Positions 39,764 through 49,014 of a DNA stretch of 64,000 nt are shown piece after piece (the first letter of the stretch is position 1; each line of letters starts with the position of its first letter). Source of the stretch: Phormidium tanganyikae FI6-MK23 (lineage in GTDB: Bacteria > Cyanobacteriota > Cyanobacteriia > Leptolyngbyales > Leptolyngbyaceae). The notes beneath the pieces were generated by a model. That model ran no database searches, was not told the origin of the DNA, and was given only the letters and a program-made list of their open reading frames with translations. The stretch lies in assembly GCA_019359175.1 (NCBI GenBank), contig JAHHHU010000008.1, positions 62,001 through 126,000 on the forward strand, read 5' to 3'. The position numbers and the translations under genes were made by a program.

Positions 39764-40131
39764 GCCCAAGCCATTCATCAAAACGCTGCTTTATTTAGTT
39801 TAATTCTGTCTGGGCTTTTGTGTCGATTTTACTGAGTTAGATACCCGTATTGACATTCTGGAAATTGAGTAAATTTGCGAATTTATATACAGTGGCAGTA
39901 CTTAGAGGTTTTTTCATACGAAAAATAAAAACCGGAATTTCGGTAAAAATGCGACGTAATCAATTCACGATCGACATGGCAGCATACTAGGGGCTCTGTT
40001 ACTTAAGTGAATTTCAGTAAGTAATTTGCCGACGAGTGAAAAGGTGTTGGGAGTCCAGCATCAAGTTTCTCTTGCTCAAATCGGAACGCCTGTTGCCAAA
40101 ACTGTTGTCGTGTATAAAAAGTGTTCTGCTG
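39764..40131. other. Intergenic region, no gene seen
   Basis: About 370 A/T-rich bases upstream of the large exported-protein gene. TTGACA at 39850 is a possible -35 but lacks a well-spaced -10. An inverted TTACTTA/TAAGTAA lies at 39999-40024. A GTG at 40036 could extend the next gene upstream. Confidence 0.45.
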
Positions 40132-42888
40132 ATGGTGTCACAGCGTTATAGTTTCATTTTCCTAGTGGTCAGTTGCTTGATCAATCTTGTCTATCTGGAG
40201 AGTGCCCAAGCAGATCAGATTTCGACCCTTCAGACTGCTGCAACAGTTCGATTGTTGAACAATACCGTTTCAACTCCGGCAGCGAGTGCGATCGCTCAAA
40301 ATGTGACCCCGGCACCCAATCAGATCGTCGTTCCCCAGCCGCCAGATTCAAAGCTGCCTGAAATCACGATTCCTGATTCTATCCTGCCCCAACCCGTAAC
40401 ACCGCCAACGCCTGCGGTTGAAGATCCTGCGGTTAGCCGCAAAATTCTCAATGCACTCATGCTGAATGCTCTGAAAAATAGCGCGGCTCGTTATCCTTGG
40501 TTTGTCAATCCGACAAATTCGGTCGCCGCATCCTCAGTTCCTTTCGACCCTAATCAAAAGCAAGACTACTCCACCTTAGATGTCCGCGCTCGTGGGAACC
40601 AGGTGATTGTTCGGAACTTCAACTATTCATCGTTTCGGAAGGACGAGCAATTTTACTGGGTACTCCCTGGGAACCGAGTCGTGGTTGAAACCCAAGGCTG
40701 GCAATTTGGCATTCGCTATCACGGCCAAACGAGACAGACACGGGTTGAACGAAAAATTCAACAGACTCAAGGACTTTGGGGACTGCAAACGGCTTGGACG
40801 ATTCCTCAGCCCTTCAAAGATTTAGTCGGTGACATTGATCCGAAAACCTTGACGATTCGATCGATCTCGGGTGAAGTGGTCAATCCGGTCGGTACTCCCA
40901 CCGGGCGAGTCGTGCTCAATACTGGAGTGAATGATACGAATGCGATTCGGATTCCCACCGCAACGCTGAAGTTGGGAACGGGTTCTACGTTTAGTGGAAC
41001 GGGTGGAAGCGCGCTCTTTCAATTCCTTGATGCCAAGAATACACCGTTGATTTTACAAGGGTTTCCAACGAGCAATTTGCAATCGTTACTTCAGGGAGAG
41101 GGATTGTTTGTCGGAGCAAAAATCCCAAAAACGGCATTGGCTCAAGCGGGTATCGTTTGGGGTAATCCGACTATGGGAACGGGTACGATCGCTGCTCCGC
41201 CTATTTCTTCGCTGCCTGGAATTAAGATTGGTCAACTCGGCAAGTTCGACAACTTAGATTTGCTGAATGTTTTGGTCAATTCTAGTCTGAGCCAGCCGGA
41301 GCGAGATTTTCATTATCTAAACTCTTTGTATTGGGTATCTCTTGGAGAAAGAGCGCCGAAGATAGTCCAAGAAAGCATCAGTGTTGAAAATAACGACTGG
41401 CATCAGATTTCGCTGAGTTTGCCGCATAGTCGAAGCTTGTTGCAGTACGATTCGACGGAAGCGAAAGCAACGTACTCTAATGTGTTTTCAAATCCGGGAG
41501 CCGCAATTTCTTTTTCGTTTGAAAAGGGGAAACTCAATGATTTACAGACGTTTAATGCAACGTTTGCGTTGTTGATGGGGGGACTGTTTAAGTTTGTTGA
41601 GCTTCCGGCTTTAGACCAAAGTTTGCAAGAAGCTGGAGCGCGGTTTAAGAAACAAGAACAGTTCGCCAATTTGGAGACGAAAGCAACTTCAGAACAACGT
41701 AGACAGATTAACCAACGCTTGAATCGAAGCTTGTTTTTTGCAAATCGGCTGAGTGGGTTGCAGGAAACCTCTGGATCGGTCACGTTTCCCAGTACGGTCA
41801 CACCCGATCGAGCAAGTGTATTTCAGATTCGCAGCGGGATGACTCAACGGCTGGTGAGATTTATTCAAGCAGAACAAACCTGGACTGAAGGTGATACGGT
41901 CTTTTCTCGGTTGAGATTGTCGAATGAGAATTTTGGGCCGTTGACTTTTCTGGGTACCCCGATTCCGGCGACTGAGACTTCTCTAGAACCGAGTAATCGA
42001 TCGTTTGCGACTCAAGTGGTTCTGGATGCTCCGGATGGTCAACGGTTTTTCCAGGAATTTAACTCTCAAGACTTGACGACCTCTGACTTCACGACTGTGC
42101 CAACGGCAATTCGATCGTTTGATATGGCATTCGATCTGATTGAGCTAAAGCAAACTGGACGACAAATCACGCGGATTAATCGCTTTGATGGTTATCTCTT
42201 TTTGCCTACGGTCGAGGCTTTGTGGTCAGGTTCTCACGGAAAGTGGAACTATACGGTAAATTCTGGGCTTTGGCTAAACTTCAACGGAAATGCTGCGTTT
42301 GAGGTTTCGACAAACAATCGTGGCACCCCGGAACCAACGGTTGGGATGTATCTGAATGGGTTGGTGAATCATATTGATACACGGGTGCGGCGCGGTAAAG
42401 ACGGAAAGCCACGATCGCTGATCACGATGTCTCCTGCATTGCGGTTTTCTTGGAATACTGCCGCAAATCCTTCTAATCCTGGCTATATCAACTTGAGCTA
42501 TCTCTATTCTGAGCAGTCTCCACGGTTTAGCTATTCGCTGACTCCGGGTGTATTTGTCACGAATGATAATGCTCGCGTTCAATCGATCGCGTTTCTTCAG
42601 GGGCAGTTTGAATTGCCGCGTGGCTTTGCGTTCAACAGTTCGTTGGAGTGGGGAGAGAATTTCTACTACTCGATCGAGGCTTCGCAGAAGGTCGATCCGT
42701 TCTGGACAGTTGGAAGCTATGTACAGAACTATCGATCGGATTCGAGTTGGGTGGGTCGGCTGTCGGATATGTCTTACGGAATCTTAATTCGACACCAACC
42801 CTTGAGCCGAGCCGCGTCTTGGGAAACCAAGTTGGGAATGAGCGGCAATCAGTTTGAGGTTCGAGTTGAAGGAAGCTTTCAATTTTAA
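40132..42888 (+). CDS. Large exported protein, probable outer-membrane beta-barrel
   Basis: A 918-residue exported protein not assigned to a family. The signal peptide is MVSQRYSFIFLVVSCLINL to ESAQA. A Pro-rich linker (residues ~45-95) precedes beta-rich sequence. The C-terminal ~350 residues alternate hydrophobic and polar residues (NYTVNSGLWLNFNGNAAFEVS, YINLSYLYSEQSPRFSYSL) and the protein ends VRVEGSFQF, a terminal phenylalanine typical of outer-membrane barrels. ATG at 40132 gives a clean signal peptide; GTG at 40036 would add 32 residues in front. It precedes the DUF4347 surface-protein gene with a palindromic element between them. Confidence 0.65.
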   Translation: MVSQRYSFIFLVVSCLINLVYLESAQADQISTLQTAATVRLLNNTVSTPAASAIAQNVTPAPNQIVVPQPPDSKLPEITIPDSILPQPVTPPTPAVEDPAVSRKILNALMLNALKNSAARYPWFVNPTNSVAASSVPFDPNQKQDYSTLDVRARGNQVIVRNFNYSSFRKDEQFYWVLPGNRVVVETQGWQFGIRYHGQTRQTRVERKIQQTQGLWGLQTAWTIPQPFKDLVGDIDPKTLTIRSISGEVVNPVGTPTGRVVLNTGVNDTNAIRIPTATLKLGTGSTFSGTGGSALFQFLDAKNTPLILQGFPTSNLQSLLQGEGLFVGAKIPKTALAQAGIVWGNPTMGTGTIAAPPISSLPGIKIGQLGKFDNLDLLNVLVNSSLSQPERDFHYLNSLYWVSLGERAPKIVQESISVENNDWHQISLSLPHSRSLLQYDSTEAKATYSNVFSNPGAAISFSFEKGKLNDLQTFNATFALLMGGLFKFVELPALDQSLQEAGARFKKQEQFANLETKATSEQRRQINQRLNRSLFFANRLSGLQETSGSVTFPSTVTPDRASVFQIRSGMTQRLVRFIQAEQTWTEGDTVFSRLRLSNENFGPLTFLGTPIPATETSLEPSNRSFATQVVLDAPDGQRFFQEFNSQDLTTSDFTTVPTAIRSFDMAFDLIELKQTGRQITRINRFDGYLFLPTVEALWSGSHGKWNYTVNSGLWLNFNGNAAFEVSTNNRGTPEPTVGMYLNGLVNHIDTRVRRGKDGKPRSLITMSPALRFSWNTAANPSNPGYINLSYLYSEQSPRFSYSLTPGVFVTNDNARVQSIAFLQGQFELPRGFAFNSSLEWGENFYYSIEASQKVDPFWTVGSYVQNYRSDSSWVGRLSDMSYGILIRHQPLSRAASWETKLGMSGNQFEVRVEGSFQF

Positions 42889-43205: not shown

Positions 43206-46200
43206 ATGTCCCTCGCTGAATCTTTCTTTAACTCCGATCGCTCACTCCTTGCTGCTTCAGAAATAAAGCATTCTGCATTTGTCGATCGACTTTCGGAGTC
43301 GCCTGCTCGATCGATCCGTTCTGCTGCGACTGCGATCGTATTTATTGATGCGAATGTCAGCAATGCGGCAACGCTCATGGCGGGAGTTCAGCCTGGGACA
43401 GAAGTGCATTTACTCGATCGGGGAAATGCGATCGAGCAAATCACCCAGACGCTTTTAGGACGGAACAACATTGCCAGTTTGCATATTGTGTCTCACGGGC
43501 AATCGGGCGGGGTGCTATTGGGCGAAACGTGGCTGGGCGCAGAGAACCTCGATCGCTATGCTGATCAACTGCGATCGTGGGGAGGCTCACTCACCGAGTC
43601 AGCAGATATTCTCCTCTACGGTTGTGATGTGGCAGAAGGCGAACGGGGTCGAAGCTTTGTTGATAGCTTCAGCCAATTGACAGGAGCAGAGGTCGCCGCT
43701 TCAGATGACTTGACTGGAAAAGGAGGCGATTGGATGCTTGAAGTGCAGACCGGAGCGATCGAGACAACTTCTCCATTTCAGACCAGTACCTTAGCCGCTT
43801 ACGACGATGCTCTTAATGTCATTATTAACGAGTGGTCACAGGGAAGTAGCGGCAATAAGGAGTGGGTGGAACTCCTTGTCACAGCTCCTACGGATCTGCG
43901 CGGTTGGACTTTGGCTGATGAAACTCCAGGTAACACCTACACCACCTTCAGCAATAGCTTACTCTGGCAGAATGTAGCCGCAGGAACTTTGATTGTCATT
44001 TACAATGGCGGAGATCGAGACACCGCACCCTTTCCAACGACTGATGACACCGATTTCAGCGATGGCAACTTTCAGATAGTAGCCGCTCACACCAATTTAA
44101 CTCTGTTTACTACACCTACGAGTTGGAGTGGCTTTAATAACACTGACATAAATGATAATCCGATTCTACGCAATGCAGCAAATACGATCGTTCACGATTG
44201 GGATCAGAGCAACAATGCTGCATTTACAGCAGTGCGACCTGGAGGGACTCAATCCATTTTTTACACAGGAAATACAGTCGCAGGAGTCACGACTTCAGGA
44301 AACTACTCGCAAACTTCAGCAGGTAGCGCAACACCAGGCATCGGTAGCGGTGGTGCTAACACAACTTGGATTAACAGTCTGCGAACGACAGTGCCAACAG
44401 TCGCTCTATCTTCTCCCACTGCAACGGCAACTGAAACAGGTGCAAATGGTACTTACAGAATCGCCCGCACTGGTGGCACGACTCCATCTCTAACCGTAAA
44501 GTTGACTCTCAACAGCAGCAGCACTGTCAACAGCACGACTCCGACGATCGTAGGTAACGTCCTCACTACACCAGACTACACGCTAACGGGTGGTACAGGC
44601 ATTACGCTAAATAGCCTGGTCGGCAACGAACTCACCGTGACACTAGCGGCTGGAACTAGCACCGCTGACCTCACCTTTGCTGCAATTAATGACATTCAAG
44701 CTGAAGCATCTGAATTTTTGCGGTTTGACTTGGTGAATACAGCCGATTATGACCCTGACAGCACAAACAACACTGCTACAGCCACGATCGCTCAAAATGA
44801 TTTCGTCGTCATCAACACCACCGATAACGGCGAAGGCTCCTTGCGTCAGGCAATTCTGAATGCAAATGCGATCGCGGGGACTGACACCATTACCTTCGCA
44901 GGCAGCACCTTCACCAATGCCACACCCGACACCATTACCCTCACAACGGGTCAACTCGCGATCGCTAGCGACCTTACAATTACGGGTACAGGAGCAAACC
45001 TACTCACCCTTAGTGGCAACAATGCCTCCCGCGTGTTCAGCATCAGTAGTGGCAATGTCAACCTGAGTGGAATGACGATCGCAAATGGAAATGCGGGCAG
45101 TGGAACAACCTTTGGCGGCGGTATTTCTTTTCAAGGAGGAGGCACACTTAATCTCAGTAATAGTGTCATTCGTAACAATATTACTGGTAGTGGCGGCGGC
45201 GGTTTATACGTCTCGCGCAGCAGCATTGTAGTGACCAATACAATCATTCAAGATAATACGAGCGGCAATCAGGCAGGCGGAATCAACAATGAAGAAGGCT
45301 CTCTGACCCTGATCAATAGCACGGTGAGCGGCAATACTGCTAACGGTTTTGGCGCGGCTGGAGGCATCCTCAATATCTCCTTCACAGCCGGAAGAGTTGC
45401 GACTCTCAATGTGAACAACAGCACGTTCAGTGGCAATAATGGTAGCAGCGCTGGTGGTGGTGCTATTACTAACTATATTGTTGCAGGTGATGCGATCACC
45501 ACAGTCACTAACAGTACTCTCAGCGGCAATAGAACTGCGGGTAATGGTGGAGCGATCTGGAATCAGGGCGGGACGTTCAACTTGAATAACGTTACCGTTA
45601 CCAACAATCGTGCGGATAGTGACAACAATGGTGTGGGCGATGGCGGCGGCATCCTTCGCGAGGGCGGTACAGTTACCATTAGAAACACCATCATTGCAGG
45701 CAACATAGATGGAACAAACGGCACTGTCAATCCGGATGTTTCTGGCACCTTTACTGATAGCGGTAATAACCTAATTGGTAATACCACTGGCAGCACCAGT
45801 TTTACGACCAGTACTTTGGTAGGCACTGCCGCCGCCCCTATCAATCCGCTCCTGGCTCCCCTCGCCAACAATGGCGGCTCCACCCAAACCCATTCACTAC
45901 TCCCTGGTAGCCCTGCTATCAACAGGGGCACCAGTACAGGCGCACCTACCCAAGATCAACGCGGCATCATCCGAACTGGAGCGATCGACATCGGCGCACT
46001 GGAATTGCAGAATGTCGCCCCAGTCATCACACTGCCTTCTGGCACAGTCAACTACATCGAAAACGCAACCCCACTTCTTCTTGACCCCACCGCCATCATC
46101 ACCGATGCCGACAATCCGCCCAACTTCAACACCGGAGTTCTGACCGTCAGCTTCTCCGCTAACGTCTCCGCAGACGATCGACTCGCAATCCAGAATCAAG

Positions 46201-47417
46201 GAACAGGCGCAGGACAAATCGGCATTTCCGACAGCACGATCACCTTTGGGGGAACTGCGATCGCAACCTTCACAGGCGGCACAGGCACCACAAACCTCGC
46301 AATCACCTTCAACACCAACGCTACGATCGCTGCAGTTGAGGCACTCTTGAGAAACCTCACCTACGCGAATGTCTCTGACGCACCTTCGGCTCTCGATCGC
46401 ACGGTTAGTTTTATCATGACTGATGGCGCAGGCGGAACGAGCACTGCGACAACCAAAACGATTAGCGTCACCTCAGTCAATGATGCCCCTAGTTTTGCTG
46501 CTGTTAATCAAAGAACTAGACTCGGGCAGCAAGTCATTCCGCTCTCACTTTGGACACGCAACTTTAACCTGGGGCCTGAAGAAACCGATCAATCGATCGA
46601 CAACTTCATTTTCACCAACAGCAATCCTGGAATGTTCACCGAATTCCGATTTGAATCAGACGGAACGCTTGTGTTTACTGCGTCTAATGCGCTGTTGACC
46701 CCCACAACTGCAACGATCAATGTCAGAGTTCGCGACGACGGTGGCACTGCTAACGGAGGCATTAATGAATCTACCATTCAAACATTCACGATTACCGTCG
46801 TTCCGCCGCCTCGAATTGTGATCGAAAACGTGAGCCGCTCCGAAGGCAACAGTGGGACAACCTCATTCGACTTCAATGTGTCTCTCAGCCATCAATCGCT
46901 TGATCCTGTCACGGTTCGATACGGAACAGAAGACATGTCCGCCAGAGTTGCAGATCGAGACTATGCCTCTACTTTTGGCTCGCTCTCTTTTGCACCCGGT
47001 GAACTGAGAAAAGCAGTCACCGTGAGAGTGATTGGAGATACAAAGGCAGAACCGATCGAGCAGTTCCTTGTAAGGCTGAACAGTCCTACCAATGGTATAA
47101 TCCAGTCTGGAATCGCCATTGGCACGATCTTCACCGACGATTCTGGCTCGTGGATTGGTAGCAGCAGTGCAACCGCGACAAGTTTCGTTGCTCCTTTGCT
47201 CTCTAGTCCTACAACGACCCCTATCGCTGCTTTACGCAGTAGCTCACCGATTGCTCCAACTCCGGTGAACCTGCTCCGTATCCCAAATCTGACGCTTCCC
47301 TCGATCGTGACCGTTCCTCCGATTTCAAGCCTTTCTAACAGCACCAATCTGTTACAGCAGAATCCTAATCCGGTCAAAAAGACGGTATCGATTGACGACG
47401 ATTCAACTGTTGTCTAA
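43206..47417 (+). CDS. DUF4347 multidomain surface protein with beta-helix and Calx-beta
   Basis: A 1403-residue secreted-type protein. Residues ~44-195 form a DUF4347 domain with conserved His 97 (IVSHGQSG) and Cys 140 (LLYGCDVAEG), a dyad like caspase or gingipain folds. Then comes a lamin-tail-like segment (IINEWSQGSSGNKEWVELL), a beta-helix region with CSLREA-type start (NTTDNGEGSLRQAILNAN) and many SGN repeats, cadherin-like repeats (GTVNYIENATPLLLDPTAIITDAD) and a C-terminal Calx-beta domain (RIVIENVSRSEGNSGTT to GTIFTDDS). A Ser/Thr/Pro tail follows. No classical signal peptide is seen at the N-terminus; DUF4347 proteins are often type I secreted. Adhesion is the likely role. Confidence 0.85.
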   Translation: MSLAESFFNSDRSLLAASEIKHSAFVDRLSESPARSIRSAATAIVFIDANVSNAATLMAGVQPGTEVHLLDRGNAIEQITQTLLGRNNIASLHIVSHGQSGGVLLGETWLGAENLDRYADQLRSWGGSLTESADILLYGCDVAEGERGRSFVDSFSQLTGAEVAASDDLTGKGGDWMLEVQTGAIETTSPFQTSTLAAYDDALNVIINEWSQGSSGNKEWVELLVTAPTDLRGWTLADETPGNTYTTFSNSLLWQNVAAGTLIVIYNGGDRDTAPFPTTDDTDFSDGNFQIVAAHTNLTLFTTPTSWSGFNNTDINDNPILRNAANTIVHDWDQSNNAAFTAVRPGGTQSIFYTGNTVAGVTTSGNYSQTSAGSATPGIGSGGANTTWINSLRTTVPTVALSSPTATATETGANGTYRIARTGGTTPSLTVKLTLNSSSTVNSTTPTIVGNVLTTPDYTLTGGTGITLNSLVGNELTVTLAAGTSTADLTFAAINDIQAEASEFLRFDLVNTADYDPDSTNNTATATIAQNDFVVINTTDNGEGSLRQAILNANAIAGTDTITFAGSTFTNATPDTITLTTGQLAIASDLTITGTGANLLTLSGNNASRVFSISSGNVNLSGMTIANGNAGSGTTFGGGISFQGGGTLNLSNSVIRNNITGSGGGGLYVSRSSIVVTNTIIQDNTSGNQAGGINNEEGSLTLINSTVSGNTANGFGAAGGILNISFTAGRVATLNVNNSTFSGNNGSSAGGGAITNYIVAGDAITTVTNSTLSGNRTAGNGGAIWNQGGTFNLNNVTVTNNRADSDNNGVGDGGGILREGGTVTIRNTIIAGNIDGTNGTVNPDVSGTFTDSGNNLIGNTTGSTSFTTSTLVGTAAAPINPLLAPLANNGGSTQTHSLLPGSPAINRGTSTGAPTQDQRGIIRTGAIDIGALELQNVAPVITLPSGTVNYIENATPLLLDPTAIITDADNPPNFNTGVLTVSFSANVSADDRLAIQNQGTGAGQIGISDSTITFGGTAIATFTGGTGTTNLAITFNTNATIAAVEALLRNLTYANVSDAPSALDRTVSFIMTDGAGGTSTATTKTISVTSVNDAPSFAAVNQRTRLGQQVIPLSLWTRNFNLGPEETDQSIDNFIFTNSNPGMFTEFRFESDGTLVFTASNALLTPTTATINVRVRDDGGTANGGINESTIQTFTITVVPPPRIVIENVSRSEGNSGTTSFDFNVSLSHQSLDPVTVRYGTEDMSARVADRDYASTFGSLSFAPGELRKAVTVRVIGDTKAEPIEQFLVRLNSPTNGIIQSGIAIGTIFTDDSGSWIGSSSATATSFVAPLLSSPTTTPIAALRSSSPIAPTPVNLLRIPNLTLPSIVTVPPISSLSNSTNLLQQNPNPVKKTVSIDDDSTVV

Positions 47418-47475: not shown

Positions 47476-47555
47476 GTTTGTTGAATGATGTTTGTGCTAG
47501 TCCATTCAGAAAGCCTACCGTGTGCACAACTCGATCGGTCATTGCTGAAATCTTC

Positions 47556-47661
47556 GCCCCCTAAATCTCCCATTCTGGGGGACTTTGAGATCGAGAGCTT
47601 TCCAGAACTTTGAGAAATTTCTTAGGTTCAAAGTCTCCCAAATTTGGGGGATTTAGGGGGC
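47556..47661. repeat. Palindromic MITE-like element, copy 2
   Basis: Imperfect arms of ~33 bp begin GCCCCCTAAATCTCCCATTC and end with the matching GGGGGATTTAGGGGGC, around an internal spacer longer than in copy 1. Right-flank AACGAAGTGA (beyond 47661) matches the outer arm of copy 1 at 43025. The DUF4347 gene lies between the two copies. Confidence 0.78.
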
Positions 47662-47730
47662 TGAAGCCGACCCAAACGAAGTGATGCCTATGGCACACGT
47701 GAGCGAACGACTTGTATGCACACGGTAGAT

Positions 47731-47762
47731 TAAAAAAGCGGAGGCACAAATGCACCTCCGCT
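47731..47762 (-). terminator. Terminator of secreted paralog 1
   Basis: AGCGGAGG/CCTCCGCT stem with a 10-base loop; on minus it is followed by TTTTTTA. It lies 68 bases past the stop of the minus-strand gene at 47830. Confidence 0.85.
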
Positions 47763-47829: not shown

Positions 47830-48258
47830 TTATTCCAGACCGTCTGCGCCTGCTGCTGCTTTCAAGATTGCAGCATAAGCATCCAAACCAGGTCGGGTAG
47901 CAGGGTCGAGTCCGTCCAATTCTGCAATTACAGCTTGCTTGATTGTGGTACCCGCCGTAGCCACAGGCACTACAGTCGGCTCGCCGCCGTTGATTGTCAA
48001 TACAGGTACGCCTGCGGTTGTAAAATCGCCAGTGAAAACATAATCACCACCCGCTCCAGGGTAGTACAGACCTTCAGGCAGAACTGCTTCACCGGAAACG
48101 GTGGTCACAAAACCTGCGGGGGTAACTTCAGAAACCGATCCTCTGATTGCGGATTCTGCGGATGCAGGCGAAGCAACCAAAGCAGCCAAGCCGAGCACGC
48201 CTGCCAATGACAAGCCAGTTTTCAAAATCATCTGAGCTGAGTTAGAAAGAACACTCAT
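47830..48258 (-). CDS. Small exported protein, paralog 1 of a tandem pair
   Basis: A 142-residue exported protein. The signal peptide is hydrophobic (TGLSLAGVLGLAALVASPASA-ES). The mature part is glycine-, valine- and alanine-rich and ends DAYAAILKAAAGADGLE. It shares with the protein encoded at 48559 the motif VTPAGFVTTVSG, a (Y/F)(Y/F) after PxG, and the C-terminal DAYAAI-KAAAG-DGLE. No domain is recognised. ATG at 48258 is preferred to an in-frame start at 48306, because MSVLSNSAQM begins the signal. Its own terminator follows. Confidence 0.7.
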   Translation of the reverse strand: MSVLSNSAQMILKTGLSLAGVLGLAALVASPASAESAIRGSVSEVTPAGFVTTVSGEAVLPEGLYYPGAGGDYVFTGDFTTAGVPVLTINGGEPTVVPVATAGTTIKQAVIAELDGLDPATRPGLDAYAAILKAAAGADGLE

Positions 48259-48485
48259 TGTTATTAGTCCTAAATAAGGTGACAGATTAGTGTTATGTGA
48301 CACCACTTACGTGGCAGCCTCACCAATCAAGTGTTCTCGTATTATTGCCCGGCACCTAATCTGAGTCGTCCGAATCCCTACGCAACGTTTAAGTAATCTT
48401 GATGTTGAAGTAGTGATTAATACATAGGACTACCAAGAAGGAATAAAATGCTCCAAATAAGGTGATATCTATCTATCACAAACAA

Positions 48486-48513
48486 AGAAAAAGGGTACGA
48501 TTATCGCACCCTT
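48486..48513 (-). terminator. Terminator of secreted paralog 2
   Basis: On minus, AGGGTGCGA/TCGTACCCT (one G-U) with loop TAA is followed by TTTTTCTTT. It sits between the two paralogs, so each has its own transcript end. Confidence 0.82.
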
Positions 48514-48558
48514 ACTCAGCTCAAACTATAAGATGATTTGGATCAATCGAAGCGCAAC

Positions 48559-49014
48559 TTACTCCAAACCATCAAATCCTGCTGCTGCCTTAACAATTGC
48601 AGCATAAGCTTCTCGATCAGAGCGATCGTCGAGGTCAAGTCGATTCAGTGTGCTGATCACCGTTTCCTTCAAAGTCGTCGGCAAAGCATTGTCTCCATAG
48701 ACCGTTCTGATCGGGAGAGGAGCACCTGCATCAATGATCAATCGTCCCTCGCTGATCGCACTGCCACAGTTACAGTCTTCAATCACTCCGTTAACTGTGA
48801 GCGGTTGATTGAAGAACATTCCTCCAGGAGCAACCATTTGCCCTGCTACCGAAGTGACAAAGCCGCTCGGAGTCACACGGGTCATTGCACCGCTGATCGA
48901 CCCATTCTCTGGGTAGGCAAATGCGGGTGCAGCACCGATCGTCATTGCGCTGAACGCACCGATCGCGGTTAAGCCTTTGAAAGTCACCAATGCAAAATTA
49001 GACAAACCGCTCAT
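48559..49014 (-). CDS. Small exported protein, paralog 2 of a tandem pair
   Basis: A 151-residue exported protein: signal peptide (GLTAIGAFSAMTIGAAPAFA-YP), then SISGAMTRVTPSGFVTSVAG, a cysteine pair in EDCNCGSAISEG absent from paralog 1, and the closing REAYAAIVKAAAGFDGLE. The start and end blocks are shared with the protein encoded at 47830, while the middle is different. No family is recognised. The conserved tail suggests a recognition or assembly tag. Upstream 49015-49327 is its promoter side. Confidence 0.7.
   Translation of the reverse strand: MSGLSNFALVTFKGLTAIGAFSAMTIGAAPAFAYPENGSISGAMTRVTPSGFVTSVAGQMVAPGGMFFNQPLTVNGVIEDCNCGSAISEGRLIIDAGAPLPIRTVYGDNALPTTLKETVISTLNRLDLDDRSDREAYAAIVKAAAGFDGLE

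Follow-up and report, generated by a model that had tools for sequence, protein, structure and literature searches.

A terminal hydrophobic-acidic signature in an exported-looking cyanobacterial protein family that occurs together with a predicted outer-membrane beta-barrel

The window, by which we mean the whole 64,000-nucleotide stretch of Phormidium tanganyikae FI6-MK23 DNA that was analysed, carries two small neighbouring genes on the minus strand. Gene A (47830-48258) encodes 142 amino acids from the ATG at position 48258, upstream of which lies the GTG that starts the listed version of 158 amino acids, and its product ends in ..AAAGADGLE. Its paralog B (48559-49014) encodes 151 amino acids and ends in ..AAAGFDGLE. 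The exported-looking layout of A consists of a signal sequence, a beta-hairpin block, a variable middle and C-terminal helices, and the starts of both proteins read as Sec-type signal sequences, which end in ASA in A and in AFA in B. A home-made signal-peptide script passed 54 of the 57 family ORFs, with B among the three that failed. It did not discriminate, 142 of 308 control genes passing as well, and was left aside. Downstream of each gene there is a separate terminator-like hairpin on the minus strand, with 11 pairs after A (47737-47762) and 10 pairs after B (48491-48513); six such sites were found in the region versus a mean of 2.1 in shuffles. An earlier note on this DNA had described two small exported paralogs with a terminator each, and this description was confirmed, the signals being read by eye.

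The BLASTP alignment of A and B covers the full length of the proteins (61 of 163 columns, 37% identity, E 4e-14). Because the homology is full-length, the paralogy of A and B extends over the whole proteins, and a common tag on otherwise unrelated proteins can be dismissed. The VTP-GFVT-V-G block and the AYAAI-KAAAG-DGLE ending that had been picked out by the earlier note are present in both. The middle, which it had called diverged, is indeed least conserved, with a mean column identity of 0.37 among ten close homologs as compared to 0.68 for both the hairpin block and the tail; however, the homology is not limited to the tail block. Likewise, the CxC pair that it had mentioned does occur in B, but only one other member carries it (2/57), and it was rejected as a functional site. 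The genome has no further copies beyond A and B. A similar dispersed repeat, recognised by eye, adjoins the genes at 47550-47665 of the window and lies at a contig end in another locus (L052:6810-6925).

Neither protein is named in Pfam, NCBIfam, PHROGs, PADLOC or the PDB, and no published description was found in the open-licence literature. A has no Pfam or NCBIfam match, B has no Pfam match and a single chance-level NCBIfam match, and twenty members of the family gave no credible match in either collection; the isolated single-member matches among these twenty to Phage_TAC_11 (E 0.0037), EF_0839 (E 0.007) and PRK07787 (E 0.0084-0.015) were taken as chance. PADLOC and PHROGs returned nothing of weight for A and B, two PHROGs annotated without a function reaching E 0.03-0.05 with A. 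Moreover, sequence searches of the PDB yielded chance-level matches only, and no relative was found in viral contigs or plasmids. The statement of the earlier note that no family could be recognised holds, and A and B belong to an undescribed family of exported-looking proteins.

A profile of twenty diverse members (alignment A3, 20 rows picked by eye from 37 ORFs) detected the family in 32 of 388 genomes of the class at E 1e-4. With an earlier profile of ten members, 37 of the 388 genomes were matched at E 0.01, some of the weakest matches lying inside very long ORFs. Single-sequence searches at E 0.01 matched 9 of 58 genomes with A and 8 of 58 with B, the window's own genome included. The ninth match of A, in G032, was a false match with stops; the L010 match (E 0.0048), with internal stops, was dropped as false. 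In a phylum-level draw, 13 of 194 genomes have the family, all of them from the same class; G492, which was matched in this draw only, is outside the fetched stretches. A motif-based scan of the species collection, the one search that reached beyond the phylum, used patterns of the near family and gave five cyanobacterial loci. There are one to four family ORFs per genome, often in tandem, and larger match counts per genome in the 388-genome search correspond to repeats inside one ORF. Indeed, members of 531-555 amino acids contain several copies of the domain as internal repeats, and the tail is part of this recurring domain.

A tree was built from 52 of the 57 family ORFs, the five ORFs of more than 300 amino acids being omitted. 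It contains two paralog clades (supports 88/85 and 95/81), and 10 of the 11 f23 genomes keep one gene from each clade, hence the duplication in f23 is old. The pairs of G224, G243 and G001 group within their own genome, and for A and B of the window no sister relation is resolved. In one locus, a stretch beside an intact family gene looks like a decayed extra copy (L053:9231-9536).

The conserved ending of the family lies at the extreme C-terminus. The tails of A (AAILKAAAGADGLE, 47833-47874, minus strand) and B (AAIVKAAAGFDGLE, 48562-48603, minus strand) both end in a leucine followed by an acidic residue, and L[DE] forms the last two residues of 52 of the 57 family ORFs in the fetched stretches, with Asp or Glu in the last position of 55. 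After removal of redundancy, the counts are 43/48 and 46/48, respectively. The controls were 188 neighbouring non-family ORFs of at least 150 amino acids from 21 stretches (part of the window plus L051-L070), that is from 21 of the 41 stretches that yielded the 57 members; one ends in L[DE], three end in a hydrophobic residue plus an acid and 13 end in Asp or Glu. Among the last fifteen positions, -1 (3.5 bits) and -2 (3.1 bits) are the most informative. Furthermore, three of the four C-terminally extended members still end in Asp (..FLD, ..PFD and ..YAWWD): in G001 the chain extends beyond GLE and stops in FLD or PFD, and in G006 it stops in WWD. Divergent members have also kept the dipeptide (..SAALD, ..VVGLE), and in G224 and G344 the helix is changed to IVKxWQxxGSAALD while the last residues are still LD. 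The two exceptions among the 57 ORFs end in PPLP (G004) and WSRV (G016, where the adjoining barrel gene is frameshifted). Thus, in most cases the terminal dipeptide persists when the preceding helix has changed. A reading of the tail as nothing more than a piece of the repeat was rejected since most changed or extended tails still end in a hydrophobic residue plus an acid. The tail is a genuine terminal signature, as the earlier note had supposed; no profile match explains it, and homologs with the same ending exist.

At lower coordinates than the pair, on the plus strand, lies a gene whose relatives stay with the family across lineages (40132-42888). Starting from the ATG at 40132, in an ORF that is open from a GTG at 40036, it encodes a predicted outer-membrane beta-barrel of 918 amino acids with a signal-like start ending in AQA and the C-terminus ..VEGSFQF. 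It is separated from A and B by a gene for a protein of 1403 amino acids with DUF4347 and Calx-beta domains (43206-47417, plus strand), relatives of which neighbour family genes in three further genomes of this genus. Clustering of the neighbouring genes in 21 stretches revealed that the partner accompanies the family in 18 of 21 loci, and in these stretches a third gene common to the lineages is absent. The partners in these loci are 861-1,356 amino acids long where whole, and further stretches have partners of up to 1,394. Many outer-membrane barrels end in Phe, and Phe is the last residue of 28 of 34 partners. A Pfam scan of twelve partners from the 18 loci (alignment A4) gave DUF4248 in one (E 0.00015) and no other family below 0.2, and six partners have no NCBIfam match above the cut-off.

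The last 821 residues of the window's partner (40423-42885) were modelled by AlphaFold2 from six alignment rows, with a mean pLDDT of 52.8 and a pTM of 0.45. The N-terminal half of the model is poor, mostly under pLDDT 50, and a site that binds the tail is therefore not visible in it. The strand-rich C-terminal part (41764-42885, plus strand; model residues 448-821) is mostly at pLDDT 70-93 apart from the segments 496-573, 622-633, 774-777 and 819-821, which are under 50; from model residue 581 onward, 19 of 25 ten-residue blocks are at pLDDT 74-93. Foldseek found no match to the barrel under E 0.001. VIA-align over Foldseek's list showed, in the rows given, a wide range of membrane beta-barrels, the highest Z being 12.8, for instance the LptD model 9a39 (Z 12.8, rmsd 6.8, 280 aligned) and Fiu 6bpn (Z 12.8, rmsd 4.3, 222 aligned). 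As LptD, TonB-dependent receptors, AlgE, porins, VDAC/TOM, FhaC and TamA are all at Z 10-13, no single barrel family is singled out, and neither Foldseek nor VIA-align gave a match from which a translocator function of the barrel would follow. The C-terminus of the partner is predicted, with middling confidence, to be an antiparallel outer-membrane barrel with a terminal aromatic residue. In relatives, where the earlier note had advised a look for linked transporters or proteases, this predicted barrel is what lies beside the family.

The barrel gene was found in 34 of the 388 class genomes, which is the same set as that of the small proteins (32/388) except for three genomes with the barrel only (G171, G248 and G278) and one with the family only (G002) at the threshold used; 31 genomes have both. 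All 17 genera with the family also have the barrel, and Fisher's test, which ignores phylogeny, gave p 3e-41 when genomes were counted and 3e-20 when genera were. Within the window's own taxonomic family the distribution is patchy but matched, with the small proteins in 9 of 42 genomes, the barrel in 8 of 42 and all 8 shared. Moreover, the barrel and a member are at most 5.7 kb apart in 29 of the 33 genomes that carry members, including G171, in which divergent members ending in GLE that adjoin the barrel were found after the initial barrel-only call. G006 keeps both genes though they are about 4.0 Mb apart in contig coordinates. In G344, barrel and member are near the ends of different contigs. 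G237 has its barrel on a 3.7 kb contig and one of its two members near a contig end; the other member lies inside a 55.7 kb contig, of which 20 kb were fetched and contained no barrel. The member gene of G002 has 170 bases behind it before its contig ends. The remaining two barrel-only genomes also have exported-looking neighbours. The protein beside the barrel of G248 has 319 amino acids, a family-like start as judged by eye, and the ending AVP. The neighbour in G278 is a proline-rich protein of 232 amino acids that ends in PVLD (L132:5915-6613), and another proline-rich, exported-looking protein of 229 amino acids that ends in RTLD lies near the module genes of G344 (L134:5707-6396). It is possible that these two proteins represent a second type of cargo with the same terminal dipeptide. 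The barrel is present once per genome, split into two pieces in 2 of 34, whereas the family ORFs number one to four.

One barrel and one to four diverging proteins that are nearly always together and share a terminal signature suggest an exporter or display platform with its cargo. We tentatively favour, at a little under an even chance, a two-part surface module in which the small proteins, addressed to the barrel by their tail, are exported or displayed by it. According to this proposal, the Sec system would carry the small proteins across the inner membrane, and they would arrive in the periplasm as hairpin-plus-helix domains. The address would be the extreme C-terminus, a hydrophobic residue followed by Asp or Glu that usually closes an IIRAGAGxDGL[DE]-like helix, and the periplasmic part of the barrel protein would recognise it. 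The dedicated barrel would then take the small proteins across the outer membrane or display them there, and the combination of one barrel with one to several cargos of diverging middles could give rise to a changeable surface layer, matrix or filament. As to the undescribed secreted system that the earlier note had envisaged, the new exported-looking family, its terminal ending and a linked barrel were found, while secretion itself is what we infer.

The main rival is possible, if rather unlikely: the barrel could be an uptake receptor or an exporter of small molecules or polysaccharides, to which the small proteins dock by their tails as accessory subunits such as a plug, a lid or a ligand-binding part. 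The barrel alone matches several TonB-dependent receptors, the VIA-align rows for Fiu, FrpB, BtuB and FhuA as well as for the alginate exporter AlgE being at Z 11-13, and the strict co-occurrence suits a complex as well as a cargo pair. However, the presence of one barrel with one to four diverging proteins, together with the multi-repeat members, better suits interchangeable cargo. Moreover, no TonB-receptor domain of Pfam, neither plug nor barrel, was detected in the twelve partners at E <= 1, though profiles can miss distant relatives.

The hairpin block of the small proteins bears on a second alternative. In A, the hairpin block with the signature S-G-E-x3-P-x-G is located at 48070-48141 (minus strand) according to the alignment and to the strands that are predicted for 3-11 and 17-25 in the mature protein. 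The model of mature A consists of strands with the hairpin and two C-terminal helices and is only fair (pLDDT 71.9, pTM 0.37); Foldseek gave no match to it (best E 0.62). The partner of the window contains a copy of the signature, SISGEVVNPVG (40861-40893, plus strand), which is suggestive only. The pattern [ST]xx[GAS][EQ]xxxPx[GN] occurs in 48 of the 57 small proteins, 23 of the 34 barrels and none of 256 control proteins, which come from the same 21 stretches as the tail controls. The count in the barrels amounts to about one observation because the barrels are homologs of each other, and the motif, which was defined after a non-significant profile match, is a lead only. It would be consistent with a subunit-like strand in the barrel, and such a strand would also be in line with the view that the small proteins polymerise through their tails, as subunits, into a surface filament or matrix, with the barrel as an usher-like platform or anchor; polymerisation is one of the two roles that the earlier note had considered for the tail. 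The multi-repeat members, in which the internal repeats have similar endings, the two old paralog clades side by side in f23 genomes, which resemble two kinds of subunit, and the usher PapC in the Foldseek list of the barrel model, albeit weakly (E 0.12, rank 18), point in the same direction. Yet we consider polymerisation through the tail unlikely, as the comparison of the small-protein and barrel profiles was not significant (E 0.066, probability 0.8%), no usher or pilin match was found in Pfam, and the terminal dipeptide in our judgement looks more like an address than an interface.

Enzymes resembling O-GlcNAc transferases are encoded near some of the loci. GT41-type genes are present in the stretches of five barrel genomes (L134:2795-5680, L132:2154-5873, L137:3841-7728, L059:12093-14852 and L060:13366-16068), in L059 and L060 accompanied by methyltransferase genes, and in G344 the GT41-type gene directly follows a three-repeat member. 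It is possible that the small proteins are glycosylated by such enzymes. MrpC of Microcystis aeruginosa is described as a protein of the cell surface and a possible substrate of an O-glycosyltransferase of the SPINDLY family (PMC2442094). That the family as a whole consists of MrpC-type surface glycoproteins decorated by an O-GlcNAc-transferase-like enzyme, with a barrel that merely anchors them, is quite improbable, as the remaining fetched stretches have no GT41-type enzyme at E 1e-10.

Other surface-related genes also adjoin the family in places. Genes for ShlB/FhaC two-partner transporters do so in five loci of one taxonomic family (L055:14131-15780, L056, L052, L057 and L058), and L055:6697-10482 encodes a protein with a TPS domain and CHAT. 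Although such genes or DUF4347/Calx-beta genes are at the locus in parts of one taxonomic family, mere hitch-hiking of the barrel and the small proteins in a surface-gene island, with no functional tie, is hardly credible because the other neighbours change between lineages while these two stay together in several taxonomic families, and because G006 keeps both though they are unlinked.

The reading of the barrel as exporter or display platform can be taken one step further. The pair may constitute an undescribed cyanobacterial system for export or assembly at the outer membrane, in which the barrel reads a free C-terminal hydrophobic-acidic dipeptide and its own copy of the hairpin starts assembly or passage; in this specific form, the proposal is a doubtful one that we put forward with reserve. 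To our knowledge, protein transport across the cyanobacterial outer membrane is not well known. If the proposal is right, two families without a known function would join into a single testable system that has a defined partner, a signal of two residues that can be cleanly deleted and a natural set of diverged cargos. Moreover, the terminal dipeptide would provide a simple rule for finding more cargo, such as the proline-rich proteins of G278 and G344.

Several known systems share individual traits with the module. In type IX secretion, a C-terminal signal directs proteins across the outer membrane, and here too a terminal signature is present on the candidate cargo; however, this signature combines a helix with a terminal dipeptide, and the sole match related to type IX secretion was Por_Secre_tail in one partner, below the cut-off (E 0.13). 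Curli (CsgG) and Fap (FapF) have small Sec-exported subunits with a dedicated outer-membrane pore, which resembles the small exported-looking proteins with their own barrel, but there is no Pfam match to these systems in the twelve partners and twenty small proteins, and the partner of 861-1,394 amino acids has a long N-terminal region. Sorting of the PEP-CTERM or sortase type relies on a C-terminal transmembrane helix followed by basic residues, whereas nearly all members of the family (55/57) end in Asp or Glu with no basic cluster at the end. With MrpC, where the O-glycosyltransferase gene is reportedly located downstream of mrpC, the resemblance is one of gene context only, that is the SPINDLY-family context also seen in G344. 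In two-partner secretion (FhaC/ShlB), one outer-membrane barrel is likewise dedicated to an exported partner. FhaC and CdiB are among the many barrels in the fold lists of our partner. Unlike in those systems, the twelve partners have no POTRA or ShlB match in Pfam, while the ShlB neighbour in L055 was readily matched, and the cargo of about 110 mature residues is too short for a TPS domain, which was found neither in A and B nor in the twenty members. Chaperone-usher systems of the FimD/PapC type also have the gene for a large outer-membrane barrel beside small, diverging exported-looking proteins. They differ in that no usher, pilin, fimbrial-subunit or chaperone match was found in Pfam (twelve barrels at E <= 1, twenty small proteins), the C-terminus is conserved as a helix plus L[DE], and the 21 stretches keep no third gene, the Pfam scans having covered some of the neighbouring genes. 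By analogy, the module may nevertheless work like a two-partner secretion or a chaperone-usher system.
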